From a virus, in IMG/VR virus record IMGVR_UViG_3300028829_007974, positions 1 to 40,840 of that record: a DNA stretch of 40,840 nt. One strand, written 5' to 3'. A program made the translations under genes and the position numbers. Below are positions 31,957-36,996 of this stretch, piece after piece (the stretch's first letter is position 1; every line of letters starts with the position of its first letter). Under the pieces are notes generated by a model, which worked only from the letters and a program-made list of their open reading frames with translations, was not told the DNA's origin and searched no databases.

Positions 31957-33162
31957 ATGACAATGCAGACCGATCTGCAGGCGGCTGTAGATAAGGCCAC
32001 GGCTGCCAGCGCCAAGCTACATGACGTCGTTCATGGCGATGACACTTCCACCGTCGCAACCGACTCTGGTTCGGTCAAAACGGTGGCCAAGGCGGTTGCC
32101 GACATCGAGGCCGATATTGATGCCAGCCGCATTGAGCTCGATCAAAAGGTTGCCGATGCTGCAGCCAGCGCCACGGCTTCTCAAGCCGCCAGAATTGCAT
32201 CGGAAACGGCTGAAACCGCATCAGAGACAGCCCAGTTAGGTGCCGAGATTGCCGAAGCCGGAGCGCTTGCTTCGGAGACAAACGCGAACGCGGCAAAAGC
32301 CGCTGCTGAAATAGCCCGCGATGCGGCCAGCGTCAGTGCCGGTCAGGCCGCGACAAGCCAGTCGGCGAGCGCTGCTTCAGAATCAGGCGCCGCTGCAAGT
32401 GCCCTGGCGGCTGTCACTTCCGAAAACAACGCCGCGACCAGCGACGGCATTGCAACCACAAAAGCCATAGAATCTTCCGCCAGCGCCGATGCTGCCGCCC
32501 TTTCCGCAACGGCCTCCGCCGCCAGCGCCTCAGAGGCCAGCGGTGCCGCCGCTTCCTTGAACCTGCCGACCGCGACTGGACAGGCGGGACAGTACCTTAG
32601 GCAAAAACAGGATGAAACGGGCCTTGAATATGCCCAGGTCGATCTTGCCAGCAGGGTAGACAAGACCGGCGATACCATGACGGGCGATCTGAACCTGCCC
32701 AACCTGGTCGCGACAGGTAATCTTCAGTCAGGGGCTGTCGGTGATAATGCCCGTAGCACTGGGTTCAAGATTGCTGACGGCACGGATATTGGTGAGCTTA
32801 ACCGGGTTAGCCAGTATTACGACGACCTTGCTGATAATTGCGCAGGCTATATTCCGACCGGCAATTGTAACTCTGATCTTCGGTGGACACCGCCCAATGG
32901 GGATTGGTGGAACTGGGGTCTTGGCTTCTCGCCCGCTAATCCCAACGGCTATGATTTTGCCGGAGGACAGACCATTGGTTACCAGGTCGTCCCGGTTGGC
33001 TTCGTCTACGGATCTTACAATCTCGCCGCCGATGAGATCGGTGGCGGCGAATACCGCCGGGATTACAACAACTGCAATTGCGGCGGCTTTAATTGTTACT
33101 CGAACTGCAATTGTAACTGTAACTGCAACTGTGCCTGCGACTGCAATTGCGGCGACGCCTGA
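31957..33162 (+). CDS. Tail fibre with Cys/Asn-rich C-terminus, candidate maturase substrate
   Basis: This 401-residue protein starts at the ATG with TAGGAGAA upstream. Residues about 60-210 are Ala/Ser/Glu-rich with repeated ASET and AA patterns, like trimeric fibre shafts. VDKTGDTMTGDLNLPNL (about 235-252) is a motif common in tail fibres. Then comes a Gly/Trp/Asn-rich domain (WTPPNGDWWNWGLGF). Residues 373-398 hold 11 cysteines: C373, 375, 380, and 384 to 398 at every second place, alternating mostly with Asn. Codons for Cys (TGC/TGT) and Asn (AAC/AAT) vary along the run, so the protein sequence is kept, not a DNA slip product. Two radical SAM genes lie downstream in the same string. A metal-binding tail is the alternative. 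Confidence 0.85.
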   Translation: MTMQTDLQAAVDKATAASAKLHDVVHGDDTSTVATDSGSVKTVAKAVADIEADIDASRIELDQKVADAAASATASQAARIASETAETASETAQLGAEIAEAGALASETNANAAKAAAEIARDAASVSAGQAATSQSASAASESGAAASALAAVTSENNAATSDGIATTKAIESSASADAAALSATASAASASEASGAAASLNLPTATGQAGQYLRQKQDETGLEYAQVDLASRVDKTGDTMTGDLNLPNLVATGNLQSGAVGDNARSTGFKIADGTDIGELNRVSQYYDDLADNCAGYIPTGNCNSDLRWTPPNGDWWNWGLGFSPANPNGYDFAGGQTIGYQVVPVGFVYGSYNLAADEIGGGEYRRDYNNCNCGGFNCYSNCNCNCNCNCACDCNCGDA

Positions 33163-33174
33163 GGAGTTCTCTCG

Positions 33175-34065
33175 ATGATCCAACCTTTTACGCGGCACTT
33201 CCCAGGATTAGGCGTGCCGGTTCTTCTATCTGTCCTTCGCGATCAGCGTCAGGTAACTCTCAGAACATTCCGGCAAGTCGCAAATGCTAACGCCCTAAAG
33301 GACGGTACCCGCACGGCTGACCCAAAAGAAATCACCGAACGCCTTGTTCGCCATGCGGCGTCCGATGCCGATTGGGAATACCGCTCAAAGTTGATTGACG
33401 GCGCAATCCTTGATCAGCGTTTCGCAGACAGGACCTACGAGCCTCTTGGCGGTGTCTGCCTGGATCTGGATTCAGCTCTCGGCATTGCCGAATGGAGCGA
33501 TTACGCAAACTGGGTATTCCCACTGGATCAGCAAGGAGCGCCGGGAACGCCTTTTAACCGTTATATAGAAACGACCAACACCAAGGCTCGCACTCCGCGC
33601 CTTCTTCAATTGAAGAAAGTTAACTGCGCCCTGCAGATTTATGTGCCTTTTGGATCCTGTGATTTTGCAAATTGCAGCTTCAGCATCGCGCTTCACCCTG
33701 ACTTCGGAATGATTGGCAATCTTGATCCAGGAGCCAAAGTTACCTTTGCCGAAGTGCTCAAAGGCGCATCCCGGGCCTTCCCCAAACTCGCGATCTCGGG
33801 GCCCACAGAAGTAACAGCTGATGGAAGCGCCTTGCTGACACTATCGCTCAAAACCATAAGCGGCACCCTGATCAGAGATGCCATGCCACAGGTCTATATT
33901 GAGCAGACCGCAGGATATCTGCCCAAAAGCCGATTGGTGCCACAGGATGGAAAAGCTCAGTTCAAGGTGATGGCGCTCGGCCTTGAGGTCGGCGACAGCA
34001 TTAGGGTCAAGGCCGGGTTCCGACATTACGGCGGGCTCGCCGATCATACGCTCCGGGTTGTCTGA
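33175..34065 (+). CDS. Unknown protein between fibre and radical SAM genes, Ig-like C-terminus
   Basis: This 296-residue protein follows the fibre by 12 bases with GGAG before the ATG, and its stop overlaps the first radical SAM gene (TGATG). I do not recognise the N-terminal 180 residues, which include GGVCLDLDSALGIAEWSDYANWVF and CALQIYVPFGSCDFANCSF. Residues about 195-296 look like a bacterial Ig-like/invasin fold (LAISGPTEVTADGSALLTLSL; GDSIRVKAGF). There are four cysteines in all. It may be a fibre-associated adhesin or a substrate-presenting partner for the enzymes. No RiPP recognition element could be made out by eye. Confidence 0.75.
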   Translation: MIQPFTRHFPGLGVPVLLSVLRDQRQVTLRTFRQVANANALKDGTRTADPKEITERLVRHAASDADWEYRSKLIDGAILDQRFADRTYEPLGGVCLDLDSALGIAEWSDYANWVFPLDQQGAPGTPFNRYIETTNTKARTPRLLQLKKVNCALQIYVPFGSCDFANCSFSIALHPDFGMIGNLDPGAKVTFAEVLKGASRAFPKLAISGPTEVTADGSALLTLSLKTISGTLIRDAMPQVYIEQTAGYLPKSRLVPQDGKAQFKVMALGLEVGDSIRVKAGFRHYGGLADHTLRVV

Positions 34066-35081
34066 TGCTTAACGTTTTTCTGGGGTACGCCTGTAATTTC
34101 AAGTGCGGTTATTGTCTGCAATCGCCGGGGTCGCCACCGGCACGGAATAAACAAGACGACGTGGAGAAATTCGTCGATGAGGTCGTTCCTTTTCTGCAAA
34201 AGAACGGCATCGACGAGATCGCCTACTGGGGCGGCGAGCCACTTCTTTACTGGCCTCAGATCGAGATCATTCATGAGGAATTATTGCGTGCTGGTTTGAC
34301 ATTCCAGTTCGTCAAATTCGTCACCAACGGCTCGCTTCTTGATGATCATTATGTTGAAACACTGAACCGCTGGGGAGCCTATGTCGTCGTCAGCAGGCAT
34401 AATGTGGAGAGTGAGCCAAGCTGGAACAATGTTGCAAAATTACGCCGCTCCAGCGTCTCGTTCCTGTTTACTCATAAAGAGTTATACGCATGGCCATGGT
34501 TCCATGCCTTGGACACGTTGGAGCAGCGTTGGGGACGGCCATTCTTTCCCTACGTTCACTGGGTGCGGGCGACAGCGGGGTGCGCTTCGGGGTTCTATCT
34601 GACCCACAATGACCTTGATCATCATGTTCCCCATCTCTGGGAACTGGCGGAACGGCGCTTGGCTGGAGACCGGTATGCACGGTCCATGTTCGAAGGGCAT
34701 CTTCGTGACTGGCAACGGGATCTGGTTCCCGGCGGCGACGGCATTCCCATGTGCCATGGCGACCATCATATCTCGGTTGATCTTGCCGGCAACCGGTATG
34801 GCTGTCATCACTCGGCCCGGAGTGAACTCAGGACCGGTAGTATCTTCGGCTCAGAAGAAGCGACACCGGAAACAAAGCGTGCAATTGCGCATGTCGAGAA
34901 ATTCGTAAAGAGCGGCGAGTGCATGACTTGCCCCATACGGTCCTGGTGCCGGGGTAACTGCCATCTCTCCGACACTCATGATGTCGACTGCCGCCTCGCC
35001 AAGGAAAAACACAAATTACTCGCCTGGATCGACGCCCAGGAAAGCGGCTCCAACGACCGAAACTCCATAAAGGTTCCCTGA
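34065..35081 (+). CDS. Radical SAM/SPASM enzyme 1
   Basis: This 338-residue enzyme has the radical SAM motif at the very N-terminus, C10-NFK-C14-GY-C17, binding the [4Fe-4S] cluster that cleaves S-adenosylmethionine. YWGGEPLLYW is the SAM-binding GGE motif, and FVTNGSLL follows. The C-terminal SPASM domain is complete: C before ISVDLAGNRYGC (the GX4C motif), then CMTCPIRSWCRGNC (CX2CX5CX3C) and a last C nine residues on, enough for two auxiliary clusters. SPASM enzymes typically modify peptides or proteins. It is coupled to the gene before it and three bases from the next enzyme. Likely substrate: the fibre tail. The product is unknown. Confidence 0.93.
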   Translation: MLNVFLGYACNFKCGYCLQSPGSPPARNKQDDVEKFVDEVVPFLQKNGIDEIAYWGGEPLLYWPQIEIIHEELLRAGLTFQFVKFVTNGSLLDDHYVETLNRWGAYVVVSRHNVESEPSWNNVAKLRRSSVSFLFTHKELYAWPWFHALDTLEQRWGRPFFPYVHWVRATAGCASGFYLTHNDLDHHVPHLWELAERRLAGDRYARSMFEGHLRDWQRDLVPGGDGIPMCHGDHHISVDLAGNRYGCHHSARSELRTGSIFGSEEATPETKRAIAHVEKFVKSGECMTCPIRSWCRGNCHLSDTHDVDCRLAKEKHKLLAWIDAQESGSNDRNSIKVP

Positions 35082-35084
35082 CCC

Positions 35085-36461
35085 ATGACCGATAATCTCC
35101 AATACCGCCTCACCATGCGGGGGCGGAACGGCTACCTGCGCCATTTACTCTACCGGCCTCACGAGTCACGACTGAACTGGGAGGATAACGGCGAGCGCGT
35201 TTCTCTGAATGCGGTCAGTATGGGATATAAAGACCGGGACCGCACTTGGAAACCGGCGTTCCCGATGAGCCCGGAGAACCCGGCCCGTAAATCGAGGGCC
35301 GTGCGCACCCTCAAAATCCAGATGGGCCTCAAGTGCAACTTCTCATGCGCTTATTGCAACCAGGCGAGCCAAGGAGGGCAAGCCAACGGCAACGTCGCAG
35401 ATGCCAAGGCGTTTCTGGAAAACCTTCCGGACTGGCTTCATGCGGATCCAGACAATCTCCGGGTTGAGTTCTGGGGCGGTGAGCCGTTTGTTTATTGGAA
35501 AGCGCTCAAAGTTCTGGGCGATGGATTGCGGGAAAGATTACCCAAGGCACAATTTAACATCATCACCAATGGCTCGCTGCTCGACAACGACAAAATCAAT
35601 TGGCTGGATGAACTGGAGTTTGGCGTCAGCATCAGTCACGACGGTCCTGCCCATAAAGCCACACGCGGTCCCGACCCGCTGGAAGTCCCGGCAACGCGGC
35701 AAACCATCCGTAAGCTTTATGATCGGCTGTTTCCCAAGGGTAAGATTGGATTCGGCTGTGTGCTGACCAAGGACAATCGGTCCCTTGTGGCTGTCCGTGA
35801 ATACATCGGAGAAAGGCTCGGCATTCCGGCCCATGATATCCCGTTGTCGACTGAAGAAATCCTGCTTCCCTATGATCAGGGCGGCATGGCGTTATCACCC
35901 TCGACGGATGAAGAGCACGAGCAGTTCCTAACTGACGTATTTTGGGAGGCCGTTCGTGGCGGTTCCATGCCGGTGGGTGCTGTTCGCGGAAAATGCGAGG
36001 ATTTTTACAGGTCCCTGGCCCAAGGCCGCCCAACCCGAACACTCGGCCAGAAATGCGGCATGGACAAGCCCGAGCATCTGGCCGTCGATCTAAAGGGCAA
36101 TGTGCTCACCTGCCAGAACACCAGTGCCACCATGAGGCATGGTATAGGCAGTGTTGAAGCCTTCGATGATATTCGCCTGACCACGTCGCGGCATTGGTCA
36201 ACACGGCCCGAATGCAACCGTTGTCCCGTTGTCCAGCTTTGCAAAGGCTCCTGTATGTTCCTGGAGGGCGATCTGTGGGATCAGGCTTGTGACAATAGCT
36301 ACACCTGGAACCTCTCCATGTTGGCGGTCGCGCTCTATTGGTTGACCCGACTGGTGCTGGTCGAAATTGAGGGGCCATCGCGACGTCCGGGTTTGCCGAA
36401 CAAAATGTCGGTCATTGCGTTAACGGACTTGCAGGATGGTGCCGGAGGCCCTGATGCCTGA
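35085..36461 (+). CDS. Radical SAM/SPASM enzyme 2
   Basis: This 458-residue enzyme is distinct from its neighbour. About 80 residues precede the radical SAM motif C84-NFS-C88-AY-C91 and may bind substrate (RGRNGYLRHLLYRPHESRL). FWGGEPFVYW is the GGE motif and IITNGSLL follows, then VSISHDGP. SPASM: C before GMDKPEHLAVDLKGNVLTC (GX4C), then CNRCPVVQLCKGSC (CX2CX5CX3C) and C 12 residues later. A hydrophobic stretch near residue 413 (MLAVALYWLTRLVLVEI) follows. Two SPASM enzymes with a dipeptide-repeat target recall the His-Xaa-Ser (Hxs) systems. Its stop overlaps the DUF1833 start by 8 bases, so the block is embedded in the tail operon. Confidence 0.93.
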   Translation: MTDNLQYRLTMRGRNGYLRHLLYRPHESRLNWEDNGERVSLNAVSMGYKDRDRTWKPAFPMSPENPARKSRAVRTLKIQMGLKCNFSCAYCNQASQGGQANGNVADAKAFLENLPDWLHADPDNLRVEFWGGEPFVYWKALKVLGDGLRERLPKAQFNIITNGSLLDNDKINWLDELEFGVSISHDGPAHKATRGPDPLEVPATRQTIRKLYDRLFPKGKIGFGCVLTKDNRSLVAVREYIGERLGIPAHDIPLSTEEILLPYDQGGMALSPSTDEEHEQFLTDVFWEAVRGGSMPVGAVRGKCEDFYRSLAQGRPTRTLGQKCGMDKPEHLAVDLKGNVLTCQNTSATMRHGIGSVEAFDDIRLTTSRHWSTRPECNRCPVVQLCKGSCMFLEGDLWDQACDNSYTWNLSMLAVALYWLTRLVLVEIEGPSRRPGLPNKMSVIALTDLQDGAGGPDA

Positions 36462-36996
36462 TCCGGCTCTTTCTCAGGCAATCAAGGAGGCTTACGCTGC
36501 CGCTCCGTCCGACGTGGTGATCCTGCATACGCTGGAACTGCGGCATCCGGCCTTTGTTGATGACGATGGCATTGTCACTGCCATCCGGGTGGTGCGAGAT
36601 CATGTAAATATGGCTGTTCGGTTGGAATCAGGTGCTCCATTGGATGGAGGAGCCATGGTGACGTTTGTGGCGCTGGCGTTTGATCTGTCATTGCCACCCA
36701 TCGACACCGCTCCCGTGCCGGAGATCACGGTGACGCTGGATAACGTGTCTCGTGAAATTGTCCGGCATCTGGATGCGGCGGTGGCAACACAGGACAAAAT
36801 TGAGATTACCTATCGACCTTATCTATCCACTGATCTGGAGGGGCCGCAGATGGATCCGCCGATCACCCTGGTTCTGACCGAGGTCGAGGCAAACGCGCTG
36901 CAGATTACTGGCCGGGCTCGGATGCTCGATATCGGCAACAAAGCGTTTCCGGCGGAGATCTATACGGCGAAGCGGTTTCCAGGGTTAGCGAGATAA
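36454..36996 (+). CDS. DUF1833 tail protein
   Basis: This 180-residue protein starts at the ATG with GGAGG about 7 bases upstream, overlapping the radical SAM gene. It matches DUF1833: PDVVILHTLEL-type strand (SDVVILHTLELRHPAF), IRVVRDHVNMAVRL, MVTFVALAFDLSLPP and DNVSREIVRHLDAA. DUF1833 proteins lie in the tail-tip region between the distal tail and NlpC/P60 genes, equivalent to lambda L. It marks the return to the normal tail order after the inserted fibre/enzyme block. Confidence 0.9.
   Translation: MPDPALSQAIKEAYAAAPSDVVILHTLELRHPAFVDDDGIVTAIRVVRDHVNMAVRLESGAPLDGGAMVTFVALAFDLSLPPIDTAPVPEITVTLDNVSREIVRHLDAAVATQDKIEITYRPYLSTDLEGPQMDPPITLVLTEVEANALQITGRARMLDIGNKAFPAEIYTAKRFPGLAR

Follow-up and report, generated by a model that had tools for sequence, protein, structure and literature searches.

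A radical SAM/SPASM cassette accompanying the C-terminal x-Cys tract of a tail-fibre-type viral protein

Known families of radical S-adenosylmethionine (SAM)/SPASM maturases act on a co-encoded, Cys-rich target. PapB forms a Cys thioether to a non-alpha carbon, and for the sactipeptide and ranthipeptide enzymes Asn, Ala and Asp serve as partners. Here we compare with these systems a four-gene cassette from the IMG/VR virus record IMGVR_UViG_3300028829_007974, the whole of which (40,840 bases) is called the window. The cassette encodes a tail-fibre-type carrier protein that ends in a tract of alternating x-Cys dipeptides, a partner protein (X) and two radical SAM/SPASM enzymes, rSAM-1 and rSAM-2. 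We propose, with a probability of about three in four, that it is a virus-encoded protein maturation system in which rSAM-2 works on the C-terminal x-Cys tract.

The nearest curated models are those of ranthipeptide/PapB and other maturases (NF047865, TIGR04064 and TIGR03906 QhpD), which share the radical SAM core and the SPASM domain with the enzymes of the window. The PapB-type systems differ in that their target is a short precursor, whereas here a fibre-type C-terminus with a Cys period of 2 is proposed. CefB (NF038107), CXXX-repeat (TIGR04115) and SCIFF (TIGR03974) systems are similar in having a target with evenly spaced or clustered Cys, but the spacing, as judged by the model names, is different from the period of 2 and the cut-offs were missed where these models matched. 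The His-Xaa-Ser (Hxs) systems combine a repeat protein with two radical SAM enzymes, as the window does locally; the window system differs in lacking the His-Xaa-Ser repeat and in that its second enzyme is not part of the core.

Among viral protein families, rSAM-2, a relative of which is carried by phages JWF and 2-1, belongs to phrog_1802 (radical SAM domain-containing protein), which is filed as 'other' with no target named. In the pelagimyophages, radical SAM cassettes vary within a host-recognition cluster that also holds tail fibres; the passages on these cassettes propose no target or tail modification, and the word 'cysteine' does not appear in the main text (PMC7029224). No description of Cys-tract fibres with radical SAM enzymes was found in the open full-text literature, screened mostly by listings. 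Radical SAM enzymes are known to mature Cys-rich targets encoded with them; a virion protein as the target, as proposed here, would be unusual.

The x-Cys tract and rSAM-2 co-occur in virus records

The original prediction for this locus, made from the letters of the window, had described a Cys-rich fibre end followed by closely packed genes, and both descriptions proved exact. The carrier of 401 amino acids (aa) holds 13 Cys, 11 of them within residues 373-398, CNCGGFNCYSNCNCNCNCNCACDCNC, and the genes are separated by 12 bases, a TGATG overlap and 3 bases, with an 8-base overlap to the next tail gene (ATG at 36454). The tract is far beyond chance, because Cys accounts for only 58 of 7627 residues (0.76%) in 19 other long open reading frames (ORFs) of the window, chosen by hand; the binomial P is ~3e-17 for 11 Cys in 26 residues at one given place. 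As had also been predicted, two enzymes with CxxxCxxC and the full seven-Cys SPASM set are encoded in the window, with one gene (X) before them.

When viral contigs were scanned with rSAM-2, 66 loci were retrieved. In 60/67 viral loci (L001-L068, rSAM score >100 bits) the enzyme was preceded by an ORF whose C-terminus is an x-Cys alternation with many Asn-Cys pairs, so that phages keeping the enzyme without a Cys-rich tail, which the original prediction had named as evidence that would speak against it, hardly occur in virus records. The exceptions comprised three loci with a Hint domain behind a Cys-rich stretch (L001, L002 and L056), two with little upstream sequence (L005 and L017), one with a shortened rSAM gene joined to unrelated genes (L029) and L065 (5533-9209), where the rSAM gene is in several broken frames and the tract of the neighbouring fibre is eroded to NCNCDRNCGC. 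The same broken gene and eroded tract were found in the chromosome of Polynucleobacter necessarius (L273), an apparent joint decay of enzyme and tract in this prophage.

In the phage collection, 24 records matched rSAM-2 at E 1e-5. Only three, from Achromobacter phages JWF and 2-1, aligned over most of its length (44% and 43% identity), and the same three were found with two other family members as query; the remaining matches were partial, at 23-33% identity. In both phages a Hint- or fibre-type gene precedes the rSAM gene. Among the best 80 of 161 GTDB loci, the tract was found in 62, with L274 doubtful (short internal match), and besides these L215 carries ACDCACACDCACNC; the genome matches include Thalassobacter stenotrophicus CECT 5294 and Nereida ignava CECT 5292.

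The reverse survey started from the tract: a nucleotide pattern encoding (Asn-Cys)4, which took no account of the enzyme, was run over the IMG/VR viral contigs and matched in at least 119 loci; the earlier tally with the 60/67 result took in 80 of these. For the 119 listed loci, with 123 match places, the classification was made by script, and the following counts apply among the matches listed. Where 3 kb or more of downstream sequence was available, 66/67 C-terminal (Asn-Cys)4 tracts were accompanied by a same-strand downstream rSAM gene, and the sole miss, L181, has the gene order of L016 and L027 and is cut short of where the enzyme would be expected. Where under 3 kb followed, the enzyme was found in 11/27. 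Matches that were internal or outside any ORF, again with 3 kb or more, served as an internal control and had an rSAM gene at 1/17, namely in L185, where Hint-like sequence follows the tract; the other 16 were without enzyme. Of the 123 places, 31 combined a downstream stretch under 3 kb with either a C-terminal tract or an ORF running off the locus end, and 8 others under 3 kb had an internal match or no ORF. The rSAM profile was built from 84 enzymes (L001-L153 plus the window), so that the positives helped to build it, and the controls were scored identically; the best rSAM score was below 200 bits in 5/66 positives.

The (Asn-Cys)3 pattern was also searched for in eight whole bacterial genomes, where it matched at nine places, some of them overlapping, in six genomes. 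All nine coincide with the tract of an rSAM cassette, and T. stenotrophicus accounts for three, the contig assignment resting on coinciding positions. No (Asn-Cys)3 match was found in Rhodoplanes tepidamans, whose tract is Asn-poor, or in Variovorax, where no tract was found.

Tract and rSAM-2 co-occur in both directions almost without exception in virus records, on several unrelated carriers. Of the pairing proposed in the original prediction, the part by which enzyme and Cys tract belong together was borne out (60/67 and 66/67), and the part that called for two enzymes did not prove general: rSAM-1 proper was found in 8 loci in the first count and then in L186 and L190, that is in 10 loci only, and rSAM-2 is the core.

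Carriers and enzymes of the cassette

The 174 loci of the set without L154-L195 encode 160 distinct tract proteins, 148 of which end at most 10 residues past the tract; in most of the others a Hint domain comes after it. The tract consists of 3 to 10 x-Cys units, in which x (n=827) is Asn in 601 cases, Ala in 85, Asp in 67 and Arg in 16, with fewer of any other residue. When the 401-aa fibres of the window, L003 and L196 were compared in their three pairs, 0/11 tract Cys were replaced and the interleaved residues varied among Asn, Ala and Asp. Therefore, the conserved feature is a Cys at every second position.

Ribosomal peptide natural products (RiPPs) are made as a short precursor whose leader is cut from the modified core; the carriers seen here range from 67 to 1082 aa. 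Without the tract they fell into 10 single-linkage families, five of them single proteins; the largest, with 119/157 proteins, is joined partly via repetitive fibre segments. The C-terminal part of the window carrier is homologous to 38 other proteins (31 rows aligned). Its label as a tail-fibre-type protein is based on weak hits in PHROG (best E 1.5e-6) and on the surrounding tail module: upstream lies a phrog_384 structural gene, and the cassette is followed by DUF1833/phrog_396, NlpC/P60 and TipJ-type genes. In L019 (5480-6411) and L051 (5876-6955), and likewise in L138, three tandem small tract genes share a single downstream rSAM gene. A distant class was observed in L080 (3051-11662, minus strand), L121 and L145, where proteins of 67-79 aa carry an HTH-(I/V)-F-(F/Y)-DDY motif before the tract; in L080 several different rSAM-like genes follow the small tract protein.

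A Hint domain after the tract was identified by script in seven cases, to which L093, L275 and L185 were added by Pfam or by reading. It starts at or just past the end of the tract in JWF gp028 (L001:6712-8163), L002, L211-L214, L222, L275, L185 and L093. The Pfam cut-off is passed in L001 and L093 only; the domain scores below it in L056, L211, L222 and L275 and is assigned by reading alone in L002, L185 and L212-L214. These fusions suggest that in some carriers the Hint part may be cleaved from the modified part.

Both enzymes of the window belong to the radical SAM/SPASM superfamily, with the motifs CNFKCGYC in rSAM-1 and CNFSCAYC in rSAM-2. TIGR04085 (SPASM, cut-off 27) was exceeded by both, with 35.5 and 33.1 bits, and the radical SAM model PF04055 of Pfam (cut-off 29.5) was passed by rSAM-1 with 49.7 and just missed by rSAM-2 with 28.2. 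Over residues 36-419, rSAM-2 matches phrog_1802 with E 1.3e-56, in a library without curated cut-off; the match of rSAM-1 (E 1.9e-25) has its best stretch in residues 2-110 only. The three radical SAM Cys and the seven SPASM Cys of rSAM-2 were invariant in 32 representatives, whose identity to the window enzyme goes down to 33%.

Among the NCBIfam models listed, the closest were for the most part peptide maturases (nif11-type, PapB, QhpD and geopeptide), all scoring far under their cut-offs, and the solved relatives of rSAM-2 found by sequence are led by 8vpo, anSME and 5wgg. Membership of PapB (NF047865, cut-off 340 bits) was rejected, as rSAM-2 scored 60.9 and rSAM-1 54.4; the highest score with this model, 111.4 bits, came from a distant enzyme of L080. 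Also rejected were SCIFF, the six-Cys maturase (TIGR03974, cut-off 425 bits; 45.9 and 41.7 bits), and CefB, with a Cys at every fifth position (NF038107, cut-off 600 bits; 30.6 and 27.7 bits). Kinship with the Hxs system, to which the original prediction had pointed as a parallel, was not supported, and membership was rejected: rSAM-2 reached 52.9 of the 370 bits required for HxsB and 32.5 of the 267.9 for HxsC, rSAM-1 scored 23.1 with both, and no His-Xaa-Ser repeat is present in the target, whose tract is x-Cys with x mainly Asn.

The presence of rSAM-1 was followed against the residues that end the tail. Cys-x-Asp ends, with at most one further residue, were found in 8/8 distinct tails accompanied by rSAM-1 versus 1/118 distinct tails without it, in a first count that omits L154-L195. 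A later check covered L154-L192, where the one new tail with a full-length rSAM-1 (L186, CGDA) fitted (1/1) and 0/18 new tails without rSAM-1 did; L190, with rSAM-1, repeats the tail of L063. An ORF of 88 aa in L157, with a match of 23.7 bits, was excluded from the rSAM-1 count. The rule was first noticed in the window and five loci and later held in L196, L207 and L186. The Fisher value of 7e-12 comes from related rows and is not a true probability. This correspondence suggests that rSAM-1 may act on the Cys-x-Asp end.

Partner and neighbouring genes

The features of the window locus are collected in Table 1.

Table 1. Position and basis of assignment of the cassette features in the window.
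Feature	Coordinates	Strand	Basis
Tail-fibre-type carrier protein, 401 aa, with C-terminal x-Cys tract	31957..33162	+	Weak tail fibre PHROGs, Cys positions, homologues
Cys tract, residues 373-398, 11 Cys in 26, mostly Asn-Cys; proposed substrate	33073..33150	+	Cys positions
C-terminal Gly-Asp-Ala past the last Cys; Cys-x-Asp(-x) ending of the kind seen with rSAM-1	33151..33159	+	Tail comparison
X, partner protein, 296 aa, Ig-like C-terminal domain at residues 202-296	33175..34065	+	Gene clusters, structure model
rSAM-1, accessory radical SAM/SPASM enzyme, 338 aa	34065..35081	+	Pfam, NCBIfam, motifs
rSAM-2, core radical SAM/SPASM enzyme, 458 aa, phrog_1802 type	35085..36461	+	NCBIfam, PHROG, invariant Cys
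Minor tail protein, DUF1833/phrog_396; next tail gene, outside the cassette	36454..36996	+	Pfam, PHROG

Gene order was examined in 111 loci. Homologues of X were present in 67 of them, often directly after the tract gene, and a different partner, c6, in 25, so that X or c6 accompanied the cassette in 92/111. No Pfam match was found for X, and its best viral matches were uncharacterised phage proteins (E down to 1.7e-24). The structure of X was modelled confidently, with a predicted local distance difference test score (pLDDT) of 93.6, including the N-terminal 200 residues; the PDB rows for the whole protein fall almost wholly on the Ig-like part, where the best rows have Z 10-13. Comparison with the Big-1/invasin-type Ig domains of intimin 1f00, invasin 1cwv and FdeC 4e9l gave Z 10.1-11.1 (root-mean-square deviation 2.1-2.3 over 87-89 residues), and higher Z, up to 12.9, were obtained with the Ig-like domains of GH2 enzymes.

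Clusters of 2OG-Fe(II)-oxygenase-like proteins were found in 36/111 loci; four cluster representatives score under or at the Pfam cut-off, the protein of L042 scores above it, and phrog_81 supports the assignment of c9. The ORF cluster c16 is probably, as judged by eye, a wrong-frame reading of the c9 gene. A gene with a Trp_halogenase match above cut-off adjoins the cassette in L104 (1-624, minus strand), and its cluster occurs in 4/111 loci; a tryptophan-halogenase-like gene was also observed beside the tract-rSAM-X cassette in the L118/L134/L137 group. No match was obtained in the library searches for the neighbours c22, c48, c65, c75 and the 335-aa protein of L039, and c63 and c64 had no Pfam match and matched phrog_35201, of unknown function (E 3.9e-7 and 6.2e-9). 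In L016 (3600-6516) several extra genes lie between X and rSAM-2, two of them desaturase-like by eye, with matches to phrog_35201 and no Pfam match. The desaturase-, ATP-grasp- and asparagine-synthase-like readings of some neighbours were made by eye only.

The tract-less GTDB loci were inspected in the same way. Five have less than 2 kb of upstream sequence (L198, L203, L209, L229 and L256), and seven fall into two groups: L200 and L210, beside ABC exporters, and one clade formed by L228, L241, L252, L255 and L271. A midpoint-rooted tree placed both groups, each with 100/99 support, among tract-bearing rows. YcaO and ABC/C39-peptidase exporters are typical of peptide natural product clusters. 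A YcaO gene adjoins the rSAM-2 relative of L252 (4349-9260), together with a weak ATP-grasp match below cut-off, and an ABC exporter adjoins those of L200 (3584-9344), with a C39 peptidase, and L210 (5786-9374). A large neighbouring ORF of L210 runs off the locus end before its C-terminus; in the L210 genome a loose Cys-period pattern gave two overlapping matches and its reversed control one.

Proposed mechanism and alternative readings

Taken together, the pairing with the enzyme, the portability among carriers, the C-terminal place, the invariance of the Cys and the kinship of rSAM-2 with peptide maturases make it very probable that the tract is the substrate of rSAM-2. The enzyme would bind the Cys-rich C-terminus of the carrier and perform radical chemistry there, while the fibre is being assembled or earlier. 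Since Cys is the residue that is kept, the simplest chemistry would be the formation of thioethers, which is put forward tentatively, at somewhat less than an even chance; if so, the Cys would most likely be joined to neighbouring Asn, Ala or Asp. In a subset of loci, including the window, rSAM-1 would work on the Cys-x-Asp end, perhaps linking Cys to Asp, and in some phages the Hint domain after the tract may cleave itself off, exposing the C-terminus. X and, in other phages, the 2OG-Fe(II)-oxygenase-like proteins could be partner or tailoring proteins. From the C-terminal position and the type of carrier, the product would probably be at the fibre tip, which could be covalently stiffened or specially shaped as a result.

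Several results weigh against this proposal. The association would be compatible with more than one chemistry and with X or a third molecule as the substrate, and alternating Cys fit metal binding or plain disulphides as well. Every named maturase model in the match lists missed its cut-off by a wide margin, and the structure prediction for the fibre C-terminus was unusable (pLDDT 42.5). Among the best 80 of 161 GTDB loci, 16 had no tract in reach, and L238, L254, L260 and L270 are unexplained among these, L260 looking rearranged. The loci are also redundant, as the 116 members of the rSAM cluster reduce to 68 at 90% identity and to 14 at 50%, and the reversed control pattern in the whole genomes matched twice in G005, with zero matches in the other seven.

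A different radical chemistry on the same tract, such as alternate-residue epimerisation leading to a D/L beta-helix, C-C links or a backbone change, is considered unlikely. A two-residue period repeated over 3-10 units would fit epimerisation, and the PDB sequence matches include the epimerase YydG, but its match is confined to the core radical SAM stretch and is poorer than those of anSME and 5wgg. Moreover, the Cys is invariant and the other residue is not, which favours a chemistry that requires Cys, and Tyr, Phe and His are rare at the x positions (13, 3 and 1 of 827), so that aromatic partners for cyclophanes are scarce. Still less probable is that the tract forms a metal-binding, Fe-S-binding or disulphide-zipped end, with rSAM-2 modifying X, a tRNA or a host factor and the genes sharing no more than a host-recognition module. 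Metal thiolates would suit a strand with alternating Cys, and X is the most widespread neighbour; however, X was not found in 44/111 loci (some of them cut, and 25 with c6), the tract and rSAM-2 rarely separate in virus records, and the tract is kept on unrelated carriers. The coincidental presence of a Cys-rich low-complexity tail near an auxiliary rSAM gene might be imagined from the radical SAM cassettes noted in a phage host-recognition cluster (PMC7029224), but the two-way association (60/67, 62 of the best 80 of 161, and 66/67 among the matches listed) and the specificity of the pattern in whole genomes contradict it and leave it the faintest of chances.

The proposal that rSAM-2 matures the fibre-type C-terminus assigns a candidate target to one family of radical SAM genes in phages. 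As the carrier is one protein and the tract is about 26 residues long, and as both occur in isolated phages (JWF and 2-1) and in named strains, the proposal is directly testable. More widely, and again at slightly worse than even odds, tailed phages of many Proteobacteria may build natural-product-like tips by means of a portable C-terminal x-Cys tag and multi-enzyme cassettes, the tips being covalently cross-linked or D/L-alternating and serving to bind or pierce the host envelope. Such cassettes would consist of the core rSAM enzyme, an optional second one for a Cys-x-Asp end, 2OG-Fe(II)-oxygenase-like and, in a few cases, tryptophan-halogenase-like enzymes, and a Hint domain freeing the end. 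If the proposed maturation is true, these loci would supply new enzymes with which protein ends can be altered, and radical chemistry would be part of virion building and a new layer in phage-host recognition.

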